A stretch of 61,780 nucleotides of DNA, taken from contig QUFP01000024.1 of the NCBI GenBank assembly GCA_003478935.1, positions 1 through 61,780 on the forward strand. Direction: 5' to 3'. The stretch comes from Firmicutes bacterium AF25-13AC. Lineage in GTDB: Bacteria > Bacillota > Clostridia > Lachnospirales > Lachnospiraceae. Below, piece after piece: positions 1 to 11,022 of the stretch (the first letter of the stretch is position 1; every line of letters starts with the position of its first letter). The notes below the pieces were generated by a model. That model was not told the DNA's origin and ran no database searches. It saw only the letters and a program-made list of their open reading frames with translations. The translations under genes and the position numbers were made by a program.

Positions 1-103
1 GATTTGAATAACCATACTTTTTAATAACAGTACGTATTCCGCCTTCACCATTCAGATAGGCAGTAACGAGTGCCTTCTTTTGTTCAAAACTATATTTAAT
101 CAT
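1..103 (-). CDS. IS3-family transposase OrfA-like, N-terminus only
   Basis: The minus strand reads an ATG at 103 preceded by a GGGAGGT ribosome binding site (111-117) and encodes 34 residues beginning MIKYSFEQKKALVTAYLNGE before the window edge cuts the gene. The helix-turn-helix-like start, with a KK-A-hydrophobic-x-AY-L-x-G pattern followed by IRTVIKKYGYS, resembles the OrfA (helper DNA-binding) protein of IS3-family elements, which acts with OrfB in transposition. Only the N-terminus is visible, so the exact group and whether the element is intact cannot be judged. Confidence 0.6.
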   Translation of the reverse strand, partial: MIKYSFEQKKALVTAYLNGEGGIRTVIKKYGYSN

Positions 104-114
104 AAAAGCAACCT

Positions 115-147
115 CCCAAGTGTTAGATTCTTGGTCTAACTCTTGGG
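115..147 (-). promoter_or_regulatory. Stem-loop in the transposase leader overlapping its ribosome binding site
   Basis: Positions 115-127 (CCCAAGTGTTAGA) pair with 135-147 (TCTAACTCTTGGG) with one mismatch around a 7-base loop. On the minus-strand transcript the 3' arm ends in GGG, which is also the first part of the GGGAGG ribosome binding site of the OrfA-like gene. Such a hairpin could limit translation of the transposase from read-through transcripts, as is known for several insertion sequences. That role is inference here. Confidence 0.4.
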
Positions 148-194
148 GGTCGGCTCATAAATCGGAATTTACTTCTACTTAGACATACAAACTG

Positions 195-223
195 TTGACA
201 GTAAAACTCCTATATAGTATTAT
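195..223 (+). promoter_or_regulatory. Promoter of the marR-radical SAM cassette
   Basis: TTGACA (195-200) and TATTAT (218-223) are separated by 17 bases, a near-consensus sigma-A promoter just upstream of the MarR gene at 253. The -10 lies inside the left arm and loop of the perfect inverted repeat 203-249, so a bound repressor would block it. Confidence 0.6.
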
Positions 224-249
224 TTAATAAAATACTATATAGGAGTTTT
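203..249. repeat. 19-bp perfect inverted repeat, probable MarR operator
   Basis: The arms 203-221 and 231-249 (AAAACTCCTATATAGTATT and its exact complement) flank a 9-base spacer. The repeat covers the -10 box of the cassette promoter and the AGGAG ribosome binding site of the MarR gene (241-245). A dyad of this kind directly before a marR-family gene is the usual autoregulatory site. It could also form an RNA hairpin that hides the ribosome binding site. Confidence 0.55.
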
Positions 250-252
250 TGT

Positions 253-689
253 ATGAAAATGAATGGCGGATTTCTTGTTACCAAAATAAAACAACTTGGA
301 GATCGAATCTTTGAGAAGATTCTCAGCGAAAAGAATATTGATGCGTTTAACGGAGCCCAAGGGCGTATTCTTTATGTACTGTGGCAGGAAGATGGAATCT
401 CAATCAGGTCACTCTCGATTAAATGTGGATTAGCGATAACTTCTCTTACTACGATGCTGGAAAGAATGGAAAATCAAGGCTGATAAGACGCGTTCAGTCT
501 GAAACGGACAAAAGGAAAACACTCCTGTTTCTGACTGAAAAAGCACATGCCTTAAAGGACGAATATGATTCTGTATCTGATAAAATGGGCAGTATTTACT
601 ACAAAGGTTTTTCGGAGGAAGAAATTACCCAGTTTGAGGAATGCCTCGACCGTATCAGAAAGAATCTTGAGGAGTGGCAGAAATCATGA
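253..689 (+). pseudogene. MarR-family regulator of the radical SAM mobile pair, single-base frameshift
   Basis: The first frame (253-483) carries the MarR winged-helix start, including GAQGRILYVLWQEDGISI, SIKCGLAITSLTTMLERM and ENQG. It then stops, and the continuation IRRVQSETDKRKTLLFLTEK (the typical wing and linker) runs in another frame to 689. Adding one base near 478-480 (GG to GGG, giving ENQGLIRRV) restores a 145-residue protein of normal MarR length. The start at 253 follows AGGAG (241-245). The stop overlaps the start of the next gene (ATGA at 686-689), which indicates translational coupling. The protein probably represses the cassette through the palindrome at 203-249. The break may be a sequencing error, since six other genes here show the same type of lesion. 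Confidence 0.75.
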
Positions 690-1375
690 GTATTTGTATC
701 AAAGATCAGATCCAAAACATGAATATCGTTATCGGATGTACAGTGGGGTGTGCATATTGCTATGCCCGCAATAATGTGAAACGCTGGCATATGATTGATG
801 ACTTTGCTGACCCTGAATTCTTTCCGGGTAAGCTCAAGATGATGGAAAAGAAACGTCCGCAGAACTTTCTTCTTACCGGCATGAGCGATCTTTCCGGCTG
901 GAAGTCAGAATGGAGAGACGAGGTATTTGAAAAAATCAGTGAAAATCCACAGCATCAGTTCCTGTTCCTTACAAAGCGACCAGATCTGCTGGATTTTGAT
1001 ACAGATTTGGAAAACGCATGGTTTGGTGTTACGGTGACGAGAAAAGCAGAACTGTGGCGTATTGACGCACTACGGGAAAATGTCAGAGCAAAACACTATC
1101 ATGTTACCTTTGAGCCGCTATTCGACAATCCAGGTTCAGTTGATCTTTCCGGGATCAACTGGATCGTTGTCGGCACCATGACTGGAGTTCAGAGCAGGAA
1201 GGTTCATACGGAGCCGGAGTGGGCATGGTCTCTGACAGATCAGGCGCATGTGCTTGACATTCCGGTATTTATGAAGGAAGATCTTGTCCCTATCATAGGG
1301 AATGAAAATATGATTCAGGAAATGCCGGATGAATTCAATAAAGTGTTGGAGGTACAGAGATCATGGCAGAAGTAA
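686..1375 (+). CDS. Radical SAM mobile pair protein A (DUF5131/Gp37-like)
   Basis: The 229-residue protein has a CX3CX2C radical SAM motif (C18, C22, C25 in GCTVGCAYCYARN), followed by LLTGMSDLSGW, FLFLTKRPDLL and VTFEPLF segments. The latter resemble the DUF5131 (phage Gp37/Gp68-like) family. It should bind a 4Fe-4S cluster and S-adenosylmethionine, but its substrate is unknown. ATG 686 is chosen over the in-frame GTG 674 because GAGGAG lies at 669-674 and ATGA overlaps the MarR stop. It overlaps the next radical SAM gene by 13 bases. A MarR regulator followed by two small radical SAM proteins matches the recognised but functionally unexplained mobile pair arrangement. Confidence 0.8.
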   Translation: MSICIKDQIQNMNIVIGCTVGCAYCYARNNVKRWHMIDDFADPEFFPGKLKMMEKKRPQNFLLTGMSDLSGWKSEWRDEVFEKISENPQHQFLFLTKRPDLLDFDTDLENAWFGVTVTRKAELWRIDALRENVRAKHYHVTFEPLFDNPGSVDLSGINWIVVGTMTGVQSRKVHTEPEWAWSLTDQAHVLDIPVFMKEDLVPIIGNENMIQEMPDEFNKVLEVQRSWQK

Positions 1376-2271
1376 TAAATGGAATCCTCATTAATGAGGC
1401 GGAAACAAAGAACATCATGACCAAGTCCAGTCTGCCTGTAGGCGGTTACTCGGTCAATCCATATGTAGGCTGTACACACGCCTGCAAGTATTGCTATGCT
1501 TCTTTTATGAAGCGCTTTACCGGACACAAGGAGGAATGGGGCACTTTCCTTGATGTGAAGCATTGGCCGGAAATTAAGAATCCGAAGAAATATGCCGGAC
1601 AGCGGGTGGTCATCGGTTCTGTGACAGATGGCTACAATCCACAGGAGGAGCAATTCGGGAATACCAGAAAACTTCTGGAGCAGCTGATCGGCAGTGACGC
1701 AGATATTCTGATCTGCACAAAGTCGGATCTTGTGGTACGGGATATTGATCTGCTGAAGAAGCTTGGACGAGTAACCGTTTCATGGTCGATCAACACACTA
1801 GATGAAAATTTCAAGAACGATATGGACTCTGCTTCTAGCATTGAGCGCCGTATCGCTGCTATGAAGCAGGTATATGAAGCAGGTATCCGTACAGTCTGTT
1901 TCGTATCCCCGGTATTCCCAGGTATCACGGATTTTGAAGCAATCTTTGAGCGGGTAAAGGATCAGTGCGATCTGTTCTGGCTCGAAAATCTCAATCTTCG
2001 AGGCGGTTTCAAAAAGACAATTATGGATTATATCGCCGGAAAATATCCTGATCTTGTACCACTTTACGACGAGATCTATAACAAGCATAACCGCAGCTAC
2101 TTTGAAGCACTTGAAGTAAAAGCTGAGGAAATGGCTAAGAAGTATGATTGTCCCTTTGTGGATAATGAAATGCCTTATGGCAGAGTCCCACAGGGACATC
2201 CGGTGATCGTAGATTATTTCTATCATGAGGAAATCCGAGGGACAGAGAATACAGGAAAAAGAAATCGTTAA
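1363..2271 (+). CDS. Radical SAM mobile pair protein B (SPL-like)
   Basis: The 302-residue radical SAM protein has C37, C41 and C44 in the GCTHACKYCYASF motif. The fold-typical segments RVVIGSVTDGYNPQEEQ, ADILICTKSDLVVRDIDLL and VTVSWSINTLDENF follow, resembling spore photoproduct lyase-type and other small Elp3-like radical SAM proteins. Translation starts at ATG 1363 after GGAGGT (1348-1353), inside the end of protein A, so the two are co-translated and probably work together. Its substrate is not known. The gene closes the cassette and a hairpin terminator (2371-2406) follows. Confidence 0.8.
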   Translation: MAEVINGILINEAETKNIMTKSSLPVGGYSVNPYVGCTHACKYCYASFMKRFTGHKEEWGTFLDVKHWPEIKNPKKYAGQRVVIGSVTDGYNPQEEQFGNTRKLLEQLIGSDADILICTKSDLVVRDIDLLKKLGRVTVSWSINTLDENFKNDMDSASSIERRIAAMKQVYEAGIRTVCFVSPVFPGITDFEAIFERVKDQCDLFWLENLNLRGGFKKTIMDYIAGKYPDLVPLYDEIYNKHNRSYFEALEVKAEEMAKKYDCPFVDNEMPYGRVPQGHPVIVDYFYHEEIRGTENTGKRNR

Positions 2272-2370
2272 TCTAAACGAAAATTAAACTGATGATGGTG
2301 GAGAGATTTATTTATCGCCATTTGAAATCGAGAAGTTCCAGTTTATCAGTATCAAAAATAGAATATGAAC

Positions 2371-2406
2371 AACAAAAAACATCGTAGCAATACGGTGTTT
2401 TTTGTT
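2371..2406. terminator. Hairpin terminator after the radical SAM cassette
   Basis: AACAAAAAACATCG (2371-2384) pairs with CGGTGTTTTTTGTT (2393-2406) around an 8-base loop, giving A- and T-rich flanks on both strands as in a bidirectional terminator. The remaining non-coding DNA in 2272-2580 shows only a short open stretch at about 2296-2367 (reading GGEIYLSPFEIEKFQF) that may be a gene remnant. It also holds the leader of the next small gene. Confidence 0.6.
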
Positions 2407-2580
2407 ACCCAAAACCCACAATTCAATATATAACCACAGGTTAGTACAAAATACCTTGCGTGATTTTTTGAAAGGTTTAGAACGGGAATTTCCCCTGATT
2501 TACGCCCCGATAAATGACATAAACAAGGCTTAATGTATCTTTCCTGTGGTTTTTATTTTCAGACGGAAAGGTGGATTGAT

Positions 2581-2766
2581 ATGCCGAGAATGAGCAATAA
2601 ACGGAAACAAGAGTGGGCGTTGTTTCTGAATGATCGAAACCGCATTACTTATAAAGAGCTTTGCAGAAAATGCGAAAATGACTGCAAGCAGAGCTTCCGC
2701 TGTGTTGTTGTGCATTGCCCAAAATATTTATCGAAAAGGAGAACAAAGAAATATGAAAATGATTGA
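2581..2766 (+). CDS. Small Cys-rich protein of a conjugative-element module
   Basis: This 61-residue basic protein (MPRMSNKRKQEWALFLNDRN) carries four cysteines (CRKC, NDC, FRC, and HC near the end) and resembles the small conserved proteins encoded just ahead of RepA-like ATPases in Firmicutes integrative conjugative elements. ATG 2581 is preferred over an upstream in-frame ATG at 2533 because AAAGGTGG lies at 2567-2574. Its end overlaps the start of the ATPase fragment by 14 bases, so the two were co-translated. Its function is unknown, and a DNA-associated role is only a guess. Confidence 0.55.
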   Translation: MPRMSNKRKQEWALFLNDRNRITYKELCRKCENDCKQSFRCVVVHCPKYLSKRRTKKYEND

Positions 2767-3196
2767 CAATGAAATGAATGTAACTGTACCTCTTGAAATT
2801 ATCAAGGCAAGTGAAATCGAGCCGAAAAAAGTAAAGTGGCTGTGGTATCCGTATATTCCCTTTGGTAAGGTTACGCTGTTGCAGGGAGATCCGGGCGATG
2901 GGAAAAGCAAGTTAATGCTTTCCATTGCTGCCCTGCTCTCAAAGGGAGAACCGCTACCCTTTACAGAAACGGAAAAATATGAGCCAATGACTATCATTTA
3001 TCAGACAACGGAAGATGATGCAGACGATACGGTAGTACCCCGTTTCAATTCTGCCGACGGAAACGGAGAAAATCTAATCTTCATCAAAGAAGATGAAAAG
3101 ACTTTGTCTTTCGGAGATAACCGCATTCGTGAAGCGATTGAAAAGTACAATGCAAAGCTCTTAATTCTTGACCCGTTGAGTTTTGTAGTGGTATAA
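2753..3196 (+). pseudogene. RepA-like AAA/RecA-fold ATPase, 3'-truncated
   Basis: ATG 2753 follows AAAGGAGA (2735-2742). The product keeps a Walker A motif GDPGDGKS (residues 45-52) in a P-loop start, IYQTTEDDADDTVVPRF, and a Walker B strand LLILDPLS at its end. It then reads four foreign residues (FVVV) and stops at 147 residues. Family members (AAA_25, RepA-like replication or mobilisation ATPases of mobile elements) are normally about 350-400 residues. The gene therefore ends at a deletion or recombination junction around 3180, immediately before the sensor kinase promoter. The fragment lacks the C-terminal half and is unlikely to function. Confidence 0.7.
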
Positions 3197-3244: not shown

Positions 3245-3290
3245 CAAGGAGATGTATAGAGAAATATATTTGACAGACAGGAGATTTAAT

Positions 3291-6113
3291 ATGATTTCGA
3301 GAGCAAAGAAATATGTGGCAGTGTTACTGGTTTTTGTATGCGTGTGTATGATATTTTCTCCCCGGACTGCATATGCAGCCGAGGACAGTTCGCAGCATGA
3401 AACTGTCAAAGTCGGTTTCTTTGCCATGGATGGTTATCATGTGATGGATGAAGAAGGCAACCGCAGTGGGTATGGCTATGATTTTCTTCGGCTGATGGCC
3501 CGTTATTGGGATGTAGATTACGAGTATGTCGGATACGGTAAGAGCTGGGAAGATATGCAGCAGATGCTCGAAGACGGCGAGATCGACATGGTAACATCTG
3601 CCCGCAAAACACCGGACAGAGAAGAAAAGTTTGATTTTTCACGTCCGATCGGAACGAATAATGGGATTCTGACCGTCCGCAGTGACAACAGCACGATTGT
3701 GGACGGCAATTACAGCACTTACAACGGTATGCGTGTGGCGCTTTTGAACGGAAACACCCGGAATGAAGAGTTTGCGGATTTTGCAGACAACAAAGGATTT
3801 ACATATGTTCCATCTTATTTTGATACGACCGCAGAAATGGAGGAAGCCCTTCAGAGCGGAAAAGTTGATGCGATTGTTACCAGTTCTCTGAGAAAAACAA
3901 ACAATGAGCGTATTGTGGATAAATTTGGCAGCAGCGATTTCTATGTCATTGTTAAAAAAGGCAATACAAAATTGCTGAATGAGATCAATTATGCAATCGA
4001 CCAGATGAATGCAGTTGAGGGTGACTGGAAAACGACACTTTATAAAAAAAATTATGAAAGCATAGAAACTAAGAATCTGGAATATACGGAGAAAGAAAAA
4101 AGCATTATTTCACAGTATTCCAAGGACAACCCGCTTCATGTTCTGTGTGATCCGACCCGTCAGCCATATTCTTATAATGAAAATGGTGAGATGAAGGGTA
4201 TTATCCCGGATTACTTTAGGAAAATTGCAGACTATGCGGGGATTTCCTATGAGTTTCTTACACCTGCCACCAGAGATGAGTATATTGCCTATCAGAAAAA
4301 TAGGGAAACCACAGATATAAGCATCGATGCGCGTCTGGAAACAGATAACTATGCTGAGACGAAAAAATGGGGGATTACTGCACCTTTCATTACGATGCAG
4401 CTGGCGAGGGTGACACGGCGTGACTTTGATGGAAAAATTAATGTTGTTACTACTGTTGACCAGACAGCATCAAATTCAATTGAAGATGCAATGGCACCCG
4501 GTGCAGAAAAACTGATGTGCAGTACCCGACAGGAAATGATGGAAGCTGTCCGTAAGGGTAAAGCAGATGCTGCCTTCGTCTACTATTACATGGCACAGGC
4601 GTTTGTGAACAGTGACACTACGGGCACCATGACATATACTCTGCTGGAACAGCCTACATTCACCTACCGCATGGTAATTTCCTCAACTGAGAACCATGCG
4701 CTGGCTGGTATTCTGACGAAAGCAATGTATGCCATGCCCAAAAATCTTGTTGAAGATCTTGCAGCACAGTATACTACATACAAAGCAACAGAGCTGACAT
4801 TTGTTGACTTGATACGTCTGCATCCTGTTGTTACTGTTTGGGTTCTACTTATTTTTGGATGGCTGCTGACTGCTATGGCTGTGATAATGGTGCGTCTCAG
4901 TGCAAGAAAAAAAGCTCAGAAGGCGGCCCAGGAGAAAGCTGAGGAAATGGCGGAACTGGCAGAGCATGCACAGGCTGCAAACAAGGCAAAAACAGCATTT
5001 CTGTCACACATGTCCCATGATATGAGGACACCGATGAATGCAATCATAGGATTTACCGGTATTGCAATGAAAAACAATCCGTCAGACGAAGTGAAAAATT
5101 GTCTGGAAAAGATTGACGAAAGCTCAGAGCATTTACTGTCGCTGATCAATGATGTATTAGATCTGACTCGCATCGAAAGTGGAAAAGTGAATTACAATCC
5201 GGTATCGGCGGATGTGAAAAACATTACAGATTCTGCATTGGATATTACAAAAGGCTTTCTTACGAACAGGGATATCAACTTTAAGATTCAGCGTGAAGAA
5301 GCAAAGATTCCCAATGTACTTGCGGATTCTGCACGCCTGCGTGATGTGCTGGTCAATATTCTGAGCAATGCCGTAAAATACACTCCGGATGGAGGGACGA
5401 TTACCTTTGAAGCCCGGTGTCAGGAAAAGGGCGGGGATGGATATATAAATATGCGTTACCGTATTTCGGATACTGGTATTGGCATGAGTGAGGAATTTAC
5501 AAAAGAAGTTTTTGAGGAATTTGCACAGGAAAATTCCGATGTGAGAACGCAGTACCATGGAGTTGGACTGGGGATGGCTATCGTAAAGAAGTATGTAGAT
5601 ATGATGGGTGGAACCATTTCCGTGCAGAGTAAAAAGCATGAGGGAACCACATTTACTGTGGATATTCCTTTGGAAATTACAGATAAGGAATGTAATAAGT
5701 CAGACACAGGTATTTCTGAAAAGGTGAATCTTACAGGTGTGAATGTCCTTCTTGCAGAGGATAATGAACTGAATGCAGAGATTGCTGCCGTGCAGTTGGA
5801 AGAGTTCGGGATGAATGTAGAAAGAGCTGTGGATGGAAAGAATGCTGTTGAGATTTTCAGAAATCATCCGGAAGGCACATTTGATGTAATCCTGATGGAT
5901 ATCATGATGCCTGAGATGAATGGTTATGAAGCGGCAAAAGCAATCAGGGCAATGAATGACAGACCGGATGGAAAAAACATTCCTATTATAGCAATGACAG
6001 CGAATTCATTTGCAGAAGATGTTCAGGCATCACTGGATGCAGGAATGAACGCACATTTGTCAAAGCCGATTGTGATTGATGAAGTTATAAAAACGATTTT
6101 AAAGTATGTATAG
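3291..6113 (+). CDS. Hybrid sensor histidine kinase with two substrate-binding-protein sensor domains
   Basis: The 940-residue membrane sensor has several parts in order. A signal peptide ending around TAYAAEDSS comes first. Two SBP_bac_3-type domains follow (about 40-265 and 275-500), like amino-acid binding proteins. A transmembrane helix (about 510-535) and a short coiled coil lead to HisKA with H576 in SHDMRTPMNAI. The ATPase has the N-box LSNAVKYTP, DTGIGM and GLGMAI. A receiver domain closes the protein, with D870 in ILMDIMMPEMNGYE. ATG 3291 is preferred because CAGGAG lies 8 bases upstream, whereas ATG 3252 abuts its own AAGGAG. No output regulator is adjacent, so the phosphoryl target is unknown. 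A paralogue of the same design lies at 14178-17149. Confidence 0.9.
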   Translation: MISRAKKYVAVLLVFVCVCMIFSPRTAYAAEDSSQHETVKVGFFAMDGYHVMDEEGNRSGYGYDFLRLMARYWDVDYEYVGYGKSWEDMQQMLEDGEIDMVTSARKTPDREEKFDFSRPIGTNNGILTVRSDNSTIVDGNYSTYNGMRVALLNGNTRNEEFADFADNKGFTYVPSYFDTTAEMEEALQSGKVDAIVTSSLRKTNNERIVDKFGSSDFYVIVKKGNTKLLNEINYAIDQMNAVEGDWKTTLYKKNYESIETKNLEYTEKEKSIISQYSKDNPLHVLCDPTRQPYSYNENGEMKGIIPDYFRKIADYAGISYEFLTPATRDEYIAYQKNRETTDISIDARLETDNYAETKKWGITAPFITMQLARVTRRDFDGKINVVTTVDQTASNSIEDAMAPGAEKLMCSTRQEMMEAVRKGKADAAFVYYYMAQAFVNSDTTGTMTYTLLEQPTFTYRMVISSTENHALAGILTKAMYAMPKNLVEDLAAQYTTYKATELTFVDLIRLHPVVTVWVLLIFGWLLTAMAVIMVRLSARKKAQKAAQEKAEEMAELAEHAQAANKAKTAFLSHMSHDMRTPMNAIIGFTGIAMKNNPSDEVKNCLEKIDESSEHLLSLINDVLDLTRIESGKVNYNPVSADVKNITDSALDITKGFLTNRDINFKIQREEAKIPNVLADSARLRDVLVNILSNAVKYTPDGGTITFEARCQEKGGDGYINMRYRISDTGIGMSEEFTKEVFEEFAQENSDVRTQYHGVGLGMAIVKKYVDMMGGTISVQSKKHEGTTFTVDIPLEITDKECNKSDTGISEKVNLTGVNVLLAEDNELNAEIAAVQLEEFGMNVERAVDGKNAVEIFRNHPEGTFDVILMDIMMPEMNGYEAAKAIRAMNDRPDGKNIPIIAMTANSFAEDVQASLDAGMNAHLSKPIVIDEVIKTILKYV

Positions 6114-8742: not shown

Positions 8743-10464
8743 TCAAATTGAGAGGTTCCCACGGCTTTCGGGTTTTTCAGCTGAAGTGTCAGTTACACCT
8801 GAACATTTCTCTTTTATGAAGTCACTCCATGGCATTAACTGTTCTATGCCTGCGGGCTCATCTTTGTAGTCCGGCATATACAGCAGCAGAGTGTACAGAT
8901 ATTGATAAACATTCAGGTTGTTTGCTTTGGCTGTCTCAATCAGGCTTAGGACAGTTGCACTTGCACGGGCTCCATCTAACGTGTTATGGAACAGGAAGTT
9001 CTTTCGTCCCATAACATAAGATTTCACTCGCCTTTCAGCGGCATTGTTGGAAATCTCACATCTTCCGTCCTGCAGATAGTTCATGAGCGTTTCCTTATGA
9101 TTGAAAGCATAGTTCACTGCCTTCTCCAGCTTGCTTCCGCCTGTTGGTGAAAGTGTTTCAAGCCAGCTCCAGAATTCTTCCCAGATCCGTGGCTGTGTTT
9201 CAAGGCGTTTTTGTTTGCGCTCATCTGCCGGAAGGTCTTTATAAAGTCGCTCTTCATAAAACAGTCGGTTACAGAACTCTACACCTTTTTGAGCCGCACT
9301 GAGCTTCTCGTTAGAAGCTGTCTTATCATCTGGTTTTTCTTGTGCCTGTTCAGAATTAATATCCAACAGCTTCTGCTTTTTTCGACGTTCCGCAGGAATC
9401 GCTTCAAAGAACTTTCGACGACAGTGTGCAAGACAACATACCAGAACAACGTCCTCGATTCTTCCATACGCAGAATAGCCGTCGCATTGAAGCATTCCGG
9501 TAAAGCCGGCTAAAAACTTGATTGGATGATCGCCTCCACGTCCTGAGCAATAATCATACAGAACGATTTTGGGTTCACCATCTGTCCCACTCAGATAAAC
9601 CCACATGTAGGACTTCGATGTTGCAGCCTTTCCTTCTTCATGAAGTACCTGGCATGGAACTTCATCTGCATGAATAACTGATCGGCTGATCAGCTCCACA
9701 TGCATCGCCTGATAAATCGGTAACAGGTATTCCAAAGCACATGTGTTATACCAGTTAGCGGCGGTCTCGCGCGGAAGTGGAACTCCTTTTTCTTTCCAGT
9801 CCTTTTCCTGTCGGTAGAAAGGCAGATGCAAAAAGCTTTTCTGGTACATAACCATAGCGACCATATCCGGTGATGCCGGACTATGCGGCATTAATGCGGT
9901 TGGGGTCTTTGCTTGTGTGATTGTGGTATCATCCTCTTCACGGCAGACCGGACAGATCAACTTTTCCTGCATGTAACGGACACGCACTACCTTAGCCGGA
10001 GTAATTCGCAGTTCTTCACGGATAAAGGTATATCCCATATGTTCCATTTCTGCACCACAGTCTGGACAAAGGCGCTCTTGCTGTGGAACATCGCATAAGA
10101 CTTCTTCTATCGGAAGGAGTGCATAAAGATCATCACGTTTAGCCTTTTTCTTTCTGGTACGTGTATGTTCTTTCACAGGGATACCGGATTCCTGCTCGGA
10201 GGCTTCTTCACAAACAGGTTCATCAGTTTGTTTTTTTTTACTTTTTTCGCTGGATATTCCAAAAAACTTTCTTTTGAATTCATTCAGTGTTTCGGTCAGA
10301 TTTGCGATTGTTGCCTTAAGATCAACTGCGTTTTCCTGAAGCATTTTTACTGTTGCCTCAAGATTTTTAATCGTTGCTTGAAGGGTAGCAATCGTTTCAT
10401 CTTTCTCATTCAGACGTTCTTTCAGCATCTGAATTAATTCCTGAGTCTGATCCAACTCCTGCAT
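8743..10464 (-). CDS. tnpC: IS66 transposase TnpC
   Basis: The 573-residue DDE transposase starts at 10464, where GGAGG lies close upstream on the minus strand. The longer reading from 10551 adds 29 residues without support. Parts in order are an N-terminal coiled coil (TQELIQMLKERLNEKDETIA), a zinc-binding region with CPDC and CPVC pairs, and the catalytic core. The core has HADEVPCQVL and LQCDGYSAYG for the two Asp and EISNNAAERRVKSYVMGRKN around the Glu. An IS66_C-type tail follows (SLIETAKANNLNVYQYLYTL). The protein catalyses transposition of the element. All key residues are present, so it should be active. Confidence 0.95.
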   Translation of the reverse strand: MQELDQTQELIQMLKERLNEKDETIATLQATIKNLEATVKMLQENAVDLKATIANLTETLNEFKRKFFGISSEKSKKKQTDEPVCEEASEQESGIPVKEHTRTRKKKAKRDDLYALLPIEEVLCDVPQQERLCPDCGAEMEHMGYTFIREELRITPAKVVRVRYMQEKLICPVCREEDDTTITQAKTPTALMPHSPASPDMVAMVMYQKSFLHLPFYRQEKDWKEKGVPLPRETAANWYNTCALEYLLPIYQAMHVELISRSVIHADEVPCQVLHEEGKAATSKSYMWVYLSGTDGEPKIVLYDYCSGRGGDHPIKFLAGFTGMLQCDGYSAYGRIEDVVLVCCLAHCRRKFFEAIPAERRKKQKLLDINSEQAQEKPDDKTASNEKLSAAQKGVEFCNRLFYEERLYKDLPADERKQKRLETQPRIWEEFWSWLETLSPTGGSKLEKAVNYAFNHKETLMNYLQDGRCEISNNAAERRVKSYVMGRKNFLFHNTLDGARASATVLSLIETAKANNLNVYQYLYTLLLYMPDYKDEPAGIEQLMPWSDFIKEKCSGVTDTSAEKPESRGNLSI

Positions 10465-10662
10465 TCGTGCCTTCCTCCTTCCTTTTTTCTGAGTGCTATT
10501 ATAAAGGAAAAACAGGCATGGTGCAACCAGACGCAAAAAGAGCTTCGTCATTCTGACGAATACTGTTTTGTGGATAACTCAGCGAAGACTTGGGGACAAG
10601 TCCCCCATACGGGGAAGAAACGATTTTAAAAATTTTTTGAGATTCTCTGTTTTTCATAAAAA
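10465..10662. other. Non-coding stretch inside IS66 between tnpB and tnpC
   Basis: No gene is supported in this spacer. It holds the tnpC ribosome binding site (about 10473-10478) and a short GC-rich hairpin, TGGGGAC (10591-10597) with GTCCCC (10600-10605). That hairpin may affect the level of tnpC expression. Confidence 0.5.
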
Positions 10663-11022
10663 CTAGAAGTCTTTTCGTTTGTCCCCGGCATGAATAGCTT
10701 TCGGTTGGTCAATGCTCAGTCCTTCAGTCAGCCAGCGAAACTGCTGACGGGTTAATTGACGGGCTTCACTGGCATTTGTAGGCCATTGAAAACGTCCGCT
10801 TCCATCAAGCCTTTTTTGCAGTAATACAAAGCCGTCTTTATCGAAGTGAAGTGCTTTGATTTTTCGTTTGTCTCTCCCACAGAACAGATACAGTGCATTC
10901 GCATATGGATCTAGTTCGTATTTATCACGAATAATCGCCATTAAGCCATCGAAGCTTTTTCTCATATCGGTCCTGCCGGTGATCAGGTAGATCTTCGATA
11001 CACCGGACAGATCACCTAACAC
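10663..11022 (-). CDS. tnpB: IS66 accessory protein TnpB (Orf2 family)
   Basis: The 119-residue protein carries the hallmark TnpB stretches: IYLITGRTDMRKSFDGLMAI, LFCGRDKRKIKALHFDKDGF and VLLQKRLDGSGRFQWP. It ends with RQLTRQQFRWLTEGLSID. TnpB is required with TnpA and TnpC for IS66 transposition, although its biochemical role is not clear. The gene overlaps the end of tnpA by 7 bases, so the two are probably translationally coupled. Confidence 0.95.
   Translation of the reverse strand: MLGDLSGVSKIYLITGRTDMRKSFDGLMAIIRDKYELDPYANALYLFCGRDKRKIKALHFDKDGFVLLQKRLDGSGRFQWPTNASEARQLTRQQFRWLTEGLSIDQPKAIHAGDKRKDF

Follow-up and report, generated by a model that had tools for sequence, protein, structure and literature searches.

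Genes and features of the locus

The DNA analyzed here comprises positions 1 to 61,780 (forward strand) of contig QUFP01000024.1 from Firmicutes bacterium AF25-13AC, and "the window" denotes this whole stretch of 61,780 nucleotides. Near its left end lies a trio of genes formed by a marR regulator and two radical S-adenosylmethionine (SAM) genes, A and B; read from left to right, the locus starts with an insertion-sequence end and continues through a promoter with a palindromic operator, marR, A, and B into part of a mobile element (Table 1). All three are real genes of families that NCBI has already named: TIGR04472 (MarR), TIGR04471 (A), and TIGR04470 (B). A and B are adjacent and both score above the curated cut-offs, which places them in the radical SAM mobile pair. 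An earlier note on this DNA, made from the sequence alone, had seen in them a recognized mobile set without a known substrate; this agreed with the NCBIfam pair families and with a literature search that found no paper on the "radical SAM mobile pair."

The overlap of the genes was also as first described, with marR and A sharing an ATGA at 686-689 and A and B overlapping by 13 bp. The two CX3CX2C motifs, which had been called different, read CTVGCAYC in A (737-760) and CTHACKYC in B (1471-1494); only the in-between residues differ, the spacing being equal. That the two proteins act in fixed ratio is a conjecture, and the MarR gene, in which no break had been noticed, is broken in frame. Its upstream piece corresponds to TIGR04472 positions 1-73 (158.7 bits) and its downstream piece to positions 71-141 (123.2 bits), both below the 240-bit cut-off for a full-length member. 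In two relatives of 97-100% identity (L001 and L015), marR is a single 145-residue frame. The window therefore resembles the NCBIfam system in A and B, and in the marR-A-B order of its relatives, and differs from it in its frame-broken marR. Because of this break, the A-B pair is probably expressed constitutively in this copy.

Table 1. Features at and around the marR-A-B trio in the window
Feature	Positions	Strand	Basis
Insertion-sequence end, left of the cassette (in relatives, start of a two-ORF transposase)	1-153	-	Plasmid matches
Proposed mobile cassette, bounded by CGGAATTT on the left and ...TTCCAG on the right	163-2341	+	Point where relatives lose similarity; flank comparison
Promoter: TTGACA 195-200, TATTAT 218-223	195-223	+	Sequence
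Operator: two 19-bp perfect inverted arms, each with the 8-bp palindrome CTATATAG	203-249	+	Sequence; fold test
marR regulator (TIGR04472), frame broken near 480	253-689 (pieces 253-483, 423-689)	+	NCBIfam
Radical SAM mobile pair protein A (TIGR04471, DUF5131)	686-1375	+	NCBIfam, 425.2 bits (cut-off 355)
Radical SAM mobile pair protein B (TIGR04470)	1363-2271	+	NCBIfam, 608.8 bits (cut-off 410)
Cassette 3' end, 7-bp inverted repeat round the right junction: TAAACTG 2285-2291, CAGTTTA 2339-2345	2285-2345	+	Sequence
Flank also adjoining other cassettes elsewhere	2342-2590	+	Common to L002 (134 nt, 85%) and L124/L142 (window 2337-2590, 84%)
Small mobile-element gene (MPRMSNKRK...)	2581-2766	+	24/43 genomes match window 2337-2760, mostly via 2581-2766
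AAA_25 ATPase, truncated	2753-3196	+	Pfam

Conservation and edges of the marR-A-B block

A scan of species genomes yielded 377 relatives of B, from which the best 80 (the closest) were kept, so that neighbor counts refer to 81 loci, these 80 and the window. The hosts were mostly Firmicutes and included Lachnospiraceae, Faecalibacterium, Treponema, Collinsella, Fibrobacter, and others. The order marR-A-B was conserved among the relatives. When neighboring open reading frames (ORFs) were clustered, MarR was found in 65 of the 81 loci, A in 76, and B in 74, and the next largest cluster reached just eight, which points to the marR-A-B block itself as the recurring unit. Trios in distant genera shared up to 97-99% protein identity and almost no further genes. 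A was present in 76 of the 80 relatives, two copies being truncated (L016 and L031); of the four loci lacking it, L046, L065, and L075 start at contig ends and L074 carries B alone. Protein distances of the three genes co-varied in the 64 loci that passed the length filters for all of them (correlations of 0.89-0.95), and purifying selection was indicated by ratios of nonsynonymous to synonymous substitution rates of 0.017-0.140 in the 12 comparisons, out of 18, that allowed a calculation. The protein clusters of B and A held 23,795 and 26,758 member sequences, respectively. Natural A-B fusions were considered as evidence of a complex and rejected: P0001 contains a partial second B copy, and P0011 and P0021 read like frame-shift joins. 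Two differing versions of the trio were seen on separate contigs of one Clostridium fessum strain (L015 and L019).

MarR was absent from four Collinsella/Coriobacteriia loci (L047, L048, L049, and L063), and an Rrf2-type gene stood upstream in its stead in L072 and L078. On two Bacteroidales plasmids (L148, 4566-6879, and L149), a metallo-beta-lactamase (MBL)-fold hydrolase gene overlaps A by 4 bp and is followed by A-B; MarR is missing there, and an AraC gene lies in divergent orientation. By this layout, the regulator is swappable, and the hydrolase may act in the pathway. Seven loci carry a gene of 176 residues just upstream of the trio (cluster 6), and the member scanned (L066) was flavin-reductase-like.

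A separate sample of 116 Lachnospirales genomes contained six with B above the cut-off, beside a full A in two and a truncated A in one. One of the three A-less genomes (G108) has just ~1.1 kb upstream of B before the contig ends. An A-less case (L152, 2943-5884, minus strand) is a MarR-DUF1848-nitroreductase-B operon, in which the DUF1848 protein bears CX3CX2C at its C terminus and resembles a permuted substitute for A, and in another B lies near a macro-domain ADP-ribose hydrolase. Macro-domain hydrolases were found near the trio or B in L153 and L155, as were, in L010, L035, L153, and L155, proteins that we take from a motif to be sirtuin-like (Pfam gave no family for those scanned). These neighbors hint that the trio or B keeps company with genes for ADP-ribosylation and redox stress.

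The extent of the block was read from a profile of 43 left edges and 33 right edges of the main group. In the 14 bases that precede the cut, pairwise identity among the 33 right edges was above 0.8 at 11 positions and 0.46-0.72 at the other three; from the third base after the cut, it dropped to 0.23-0.56. The TT that follows the cut in 33/33 edges is partly built in, because the search pattern demanded it; main-group loci L019 (CAG^CT) and L036 (CAA^TT) were left out for this reason. The main-group right edge reads ...CTAACTTC(C/A)AG^TT directly after the B stop codon, and other groups, the window's included, have a longer 3' end ahead of the same TTCCAG. The window-type 3' end also occurs in L001, L015, and L024, and its fold was no more stable than shuffles. 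At the other side, the left edge in the profile is CGGAATTTACC. Twenty-three left junctions showed an AA(A/C)TTC(C/A)AG-like end, then the spacer TTTGGAGAATTGAAAAAA, then CGGAATTT, and, where the reading was extended, a small gene was seen to end just ahead of this sequence. The core, AA(A/C)TTC(C/A)AG^TT, is common to the ends of the trio and to unrelated small genes lying co-oriented and head to tail.

To quantify this, the pattern [AC]A[ACT]TT[CT][CA]AG[TC]TT was counted in the 80 loci outside the trio's own edges. The strand of the trio had 31 occurrences and the opposite strand 4, the expectation from block shuffles being 5.3 +/- 2.1 per strand; the count is not independent because the pattern was chosen from the same loci, the strand bias itself not being built in. 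A strict 33-base site (at most three mismatches) was found in 10 genomes when 392 from a single order were searched, three of the 10 having been known as carriers before, and in 11 of 24 carrier genomes, and a reversed control pattern gave 0. The exact site had no occurrence in viral contigs, and a search of E. coli genomes gave 0 as well. A known RNA element was rejected as the nature of the site, no Rfam match covering a site in six array loci and none being found in the window. Other lineages had different repeats after the junction, of ~190 nt in L036 and >200 nt in L010, L032, and L035.

The same edges could be those of a non-autonomous transposon. Mobile insertion cassettes hold their cargo between short inverted ends and have no transposase of their own, and the trio would resemble them if a transposase acting in trans recognized GGAATTT / AAATTCC ends; the left edge CGGAATTTACC and the right edge CTAACTTCCAG are imperfect inverted repeats. 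However, no target duplication was seen by eye at the listed junctions, and the fixed orientation and head-to-tail arrays observed here set the trio apart from such cassettes. Site-specific insertion fits better than a transposase because of the strand bias of 31 to 4 and the reuse of the same flanks described below, and we regard transposition between inverted ends as unlikely.

Cassette arrays, shared flanks, and candidate recombinases

The edges of marR-A-B are conserved in distant genera, and its neighbors are often small, unrelated genes of the same orientation with that core at their ends. Across 89 chosen loci (of the nine added ones, L103, L104, L105, L108, and L109 were found by the site), 68 site-terminated ORFs fell into 39 families, the singletons including chance cases; seven families, B included, occurred in at least two loci. 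Recurring array neighbors, found in varied order, were a gene presumed to be HxlR-type (five loci) and a GNAT gene (four loci). Among eight cargo proteins scanned, GNAT, GyrI-like, CPT-like, RibD_C, ferredoxin-type, and DUF1706 matches exceeded the cut-offs, a SnoaL-like match fell below, and one protein had no match. Two plasmid copies may be mentioned here. On an E. eligens megaplasmid (L150, 19801-34563), the trio lies in a long same-strand run of small genes, few with a core site, that includes genes for GNAT, arsenate reductase, flavodoxin, NUDIX, RNA 2'-phosphotransferase, and TtcA. On the Selenomonas plasmid pSRC6 (L147, 7284-7934), a gene annotated as chloramphenicol acetyltransferase is directly 3' of the trio.

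The place beside a given flank can be taken by different cassettes. The flank on the right of the window's cassette adjoins three different cassette ends: it is also found after a T. socranskii copy that has another 3' end and, in G354, after another cassette, at a Lachnospirales locus with a run of eleven small same-strand ORFs (L142, 1377-6028), some ending in the core site. A second flank was found after the trio in three genomes and after other cassettes in two; in five other matches opened, similarity sets in 20 bases further on, and what lies upstream is different. The G426 copy of this second flank lies side by side with a relative of the window's small gene in an element (L157, 8493-15294) that also holds DUF3847, a MobA/MobL relaxase, a CHC2 zinc finger, a VapE-like protein, and a large serine recombinase. 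It is not always in a mobile element, since in L045 it is followed by genes resembling phosphate transport (by eye).

Both shared flanks recur in many gut genomes (24/43 and 23/47 of those searched), and in G426 the second is part of the element that carries the relaxase and the serine recombinase. This would suit plain hitch-hiking, in which the trio occupies mobile-element hot spots and spreads by element transfer and homologous recombination with no dedicated mechanism. Yet the edges are sharp to a few bases, the neighbors differ almost everywhere, and the same site stands behind unrelated genes, which makes this explanation improbable in our view.

The surroundings in the window itself are those of mobile DNA on the left, where positions 1-165 were matched by 774 plasmid records, with coverage of 37/38-153 in the six matches listed. 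In the one plasmid record opened, the same place is the start of a two-ORF transposase (HTH_28/HTH_Tnp_1 plus rve integrase core); Pfam gave zero models for the window's own 34-residue left-end fragment. The earlier note had set the trio between an insertion sequence and a conjugative-element remnant. The insertion-sequence end agrees with the first half of this description, but next to the cassette the window showed no transfer gene. Directly 3' of the truncated mobile-element gene lies a hybrid sensor kinase gene (3252-6113; two solute-binding stretches, HisKA, HATPase, and receiver), and further on an IS66-family element composed of a transposase and Orf2 (8743-11022). A tRNA scan of the window gave 0.

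In layout, the arrays share much with integron cassettes and with clusters of attC sites lacking integron-integrases (CALIN), namely small co-oriented genes, a short shared recombination-like site, a shuffled order, and one or few genes per unit. With 31 against 4 sites and 39 families, they show co-oriented cassettes sharing a site as integron arrays do. An ordinary integron, with the trio as an attC cassette on which an IntI encoded elsewhere in the cell would act, could fit the co-oriented small cassettes, the G^TT junction, the terminal inverted repeats, and perhaps the TATAAT seen by eye ~20-30 nt before the left-most junction in L004, L053, and L142 (CATAAT in L041). We searched for IntI in 21 non-Treponema and 3 Treponema genomes that carry the trio, a set outside of which the window's own genome lies. 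The three Treponema carriers had strong matches, two over the cut-off and the third in two pieces, but no IntI over the cut-off was found in the 21 others (0/21). A placement of the trio inside a Treponema integron array was rejected: the Treponema putidum array beside its IntI (L110, 4401-19843) has repeats unlike the trio's sites, and no match to a trio 3' end was found near the integrase in four 20-kb stretches from three Treponema genomes. Five sites folded alone (8 strands) did not exceed shuffles in stability (z -1.11 to +0.47), and the inner site spacer varies between lineages for the same gene. Moreover, integrons are very occasional in Firmicutes, with one complete integron and a few CALIN according to published work (PMC9024848). 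The arrays are integron-like in layout but fail two tests, IntI in the 21 genomes and unusual folding of the site, and an ordinary integron appears quite unlikely.

As for the enzyme that could move the blocks, large serine recombinases upstream of the trio are candidates only. They carry DUF4368; the one in L053 is intact, ~38 nt from the edge, those in L060, L067, and L079 end ~0.7 kb before marR, and pieces were seen in L001 and L041 (L053 and L060 were tested against Pfam). According to our proposal, the blocks would move by site-specific recombination at the core, with a cut near G^TT at the right edge.

Regulation, enzyme function, and overall reading

The perfect 19-bp palindrome noticed earlier upstream of marR was confirmed. 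Its arms (203-221 and 231-249) are 100% complementary, lie 9 nt apart, and overlap the promoter hexamers, and the second one spans the ribosome-binding site as read from the sequence. The fold of 195-260 had a z of -7.8, with 0/200 shuffles as good. In the 66 marR loci (window included), the operator core was exact in both arms in 40 and had at most two mismatches per arm in 12. Fourteen were scored without an operator, among them L033, which was miscounted because its marR is broken and in which the operator is present; the remaining 13 are more distant relatives (B identity 87-91%). In the 40 exact-core loci, half-site centers are 24-27 bp apart (25-26 bp in 38), the core-adjacent base is complementary between the arms in 35, with three pair types, and a TTGACA-like hexamer lies at most 20 nt upstream in all. 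Since arm 1 sits between the promoter hexamers and over the second of them, and arm 2 over the ribosome-binding site, bound MarR should block both transcription and translation. MarR dimers on both CTATATAG half-sites would keep the promoter and the ribosome-binding site shut until a ligand, presumably an electrophile, a phenolic, or a redox stressor, frees them.

B belongs to the radical SAM superfamily by its PF04055 match (68.6 bits, cut-off 29.5), its CX3CX2C, and its barrel matches. The next families to its own are PA0069 (131.9 bits), Rv2578c (101.2 bits), and spore photoproduct lyase (TIGR04070, 20.2 bits), with which it shares the CX3CX2C and the radical SAM barrel. It is far below their cut-offs of 360, 430, and 400 bits and is not a spore photoproduct lyase by the last of these, and DNA is only a putative substrate of B. 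The structural model of B had a mean predicted local distance difference test score of 73, with a poorly modeled motif region, and matched radical SAM barrels, including spore photoproduct lyase, with a best E of 2e-5. A also has a CX3CX2C; its PF04055 score of 15.6 bits is below the cut-off, and that of a Bacteroidales A (33.2) is above. A sequence search against solved structures gave a best E of 0.13. A matched Pfam PF07505 (DUF5131; 106 bits, cut-off 28.9), and in a PADLOC scan of A and B it resembled PDC-M30B (5.4e-29) and PDC-M41B (9.3e-29), models that are themselves only candidates. DUF5131 proteins pair with a partner protein, TcmP, whereas the partner of A here is B.

These PADLOC matches and the mobile setting could indicate an anti-phage defense module. 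However, the eight scanned cargo proteins look like detoxification or metabolism (no defense-gene search of the neighborhoods was made), and a MarR, AraC, or Rrf2 beside the pair suggests chemicals rather than phage, so that we hold defense to be very improbable. The earlier note had proposed a stress, resistance, or defense module induced by a MarR ligand; induction by a ligand is plausible, with AraC or Rrf2 found in MarR-less loci, but the link to defense comes only through the two candidate models.

The regulators (MarR, AraC, and Rrf2) and the neighbors, which include flavin reductase in one clade, an annotated flavodoxin, nitroreductase, Rrf2 with cupin, and AraC with MBL hydrolase, point to a role in chemical or redox stress. 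Translated together, A and B would probably form a two-subunit radical SAM enzyme near the PA0069/Rv2578c/spore-photoproduct-lyase branch, induced by a ligand and acting in redox or xenobiotic stress. Our best guess, held tentatively, is that this enzyme repairs or removes a lesion or adduct that the inducing chemical creates in a nucleic acid or in a small molecule; a nucleic-acid modification giving drug tolerance, or small-molecule processing, would come close behind.

Several observations weigh against a mobile cassette encoding such an enzyme. By keeping the closest relatives, the survey over-represents recent spread. B also occurs without A, no A being found at E <= 1e-40 in the genomes of three of the six above-cut-off Lachnospirales B genes, and the evidence on whether the pair is usually separate is thus mixed when set against the closest relatives. 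The model of A gave no structural match at E <= 0.001. Core sites are degenerate, several gene boundaries in L142 have no visible site, and a 49-kb E. eligens stretch contains only 3 same-strand cores, including one at the left junction of the trio itself. Finally, the arrays have no recombinase linked to them: only some loci have large serine recombinases, or fragments of these, close upstream, and a supposed remnant at the head of the L142 array was dropped after tblastn with two such recombinases found none there.

Taken as a whole, the trio in the window is probably one copy of a three-gene mobile cassette that moves by site-specific recombination, with a ligand-released MarR and a two-subunit A-B enzyme. 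More tentatively, it may belong to an undescribed integron-like system without IntI in gut anaerobes, in which cores of the form AA(A/C)TTC(C/A)AG^TT ... CGGAATTT bound small stress and detoxification cassettes, inserted in one orientation at fixed places of mobile elements by a recombinase other than IntI, the radical SAM trio being the most widespread cassette seen. No description of such arrays, or of the edges and operator of this system, was found in the literature searches made. The sharp cassette edges, the array setting, and the broken marR are absent from the earlier note. The trio is a known family, and what appears new is the compact mobile block with exact edges in cassette arrays; these arrays are the part worth following, and the broken regulator is a correction. 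If the proposal is true, a separate cassette-shuffling system in Clostridia and their neighbors would account for the transfer of small stress and detoxification genes, one at a time, from one gut species to another. It would also offer a handle on a very abundant enzyme pair, whose substrate could be searched for in a testable way because redox and ligand-sensing neighbors recur.

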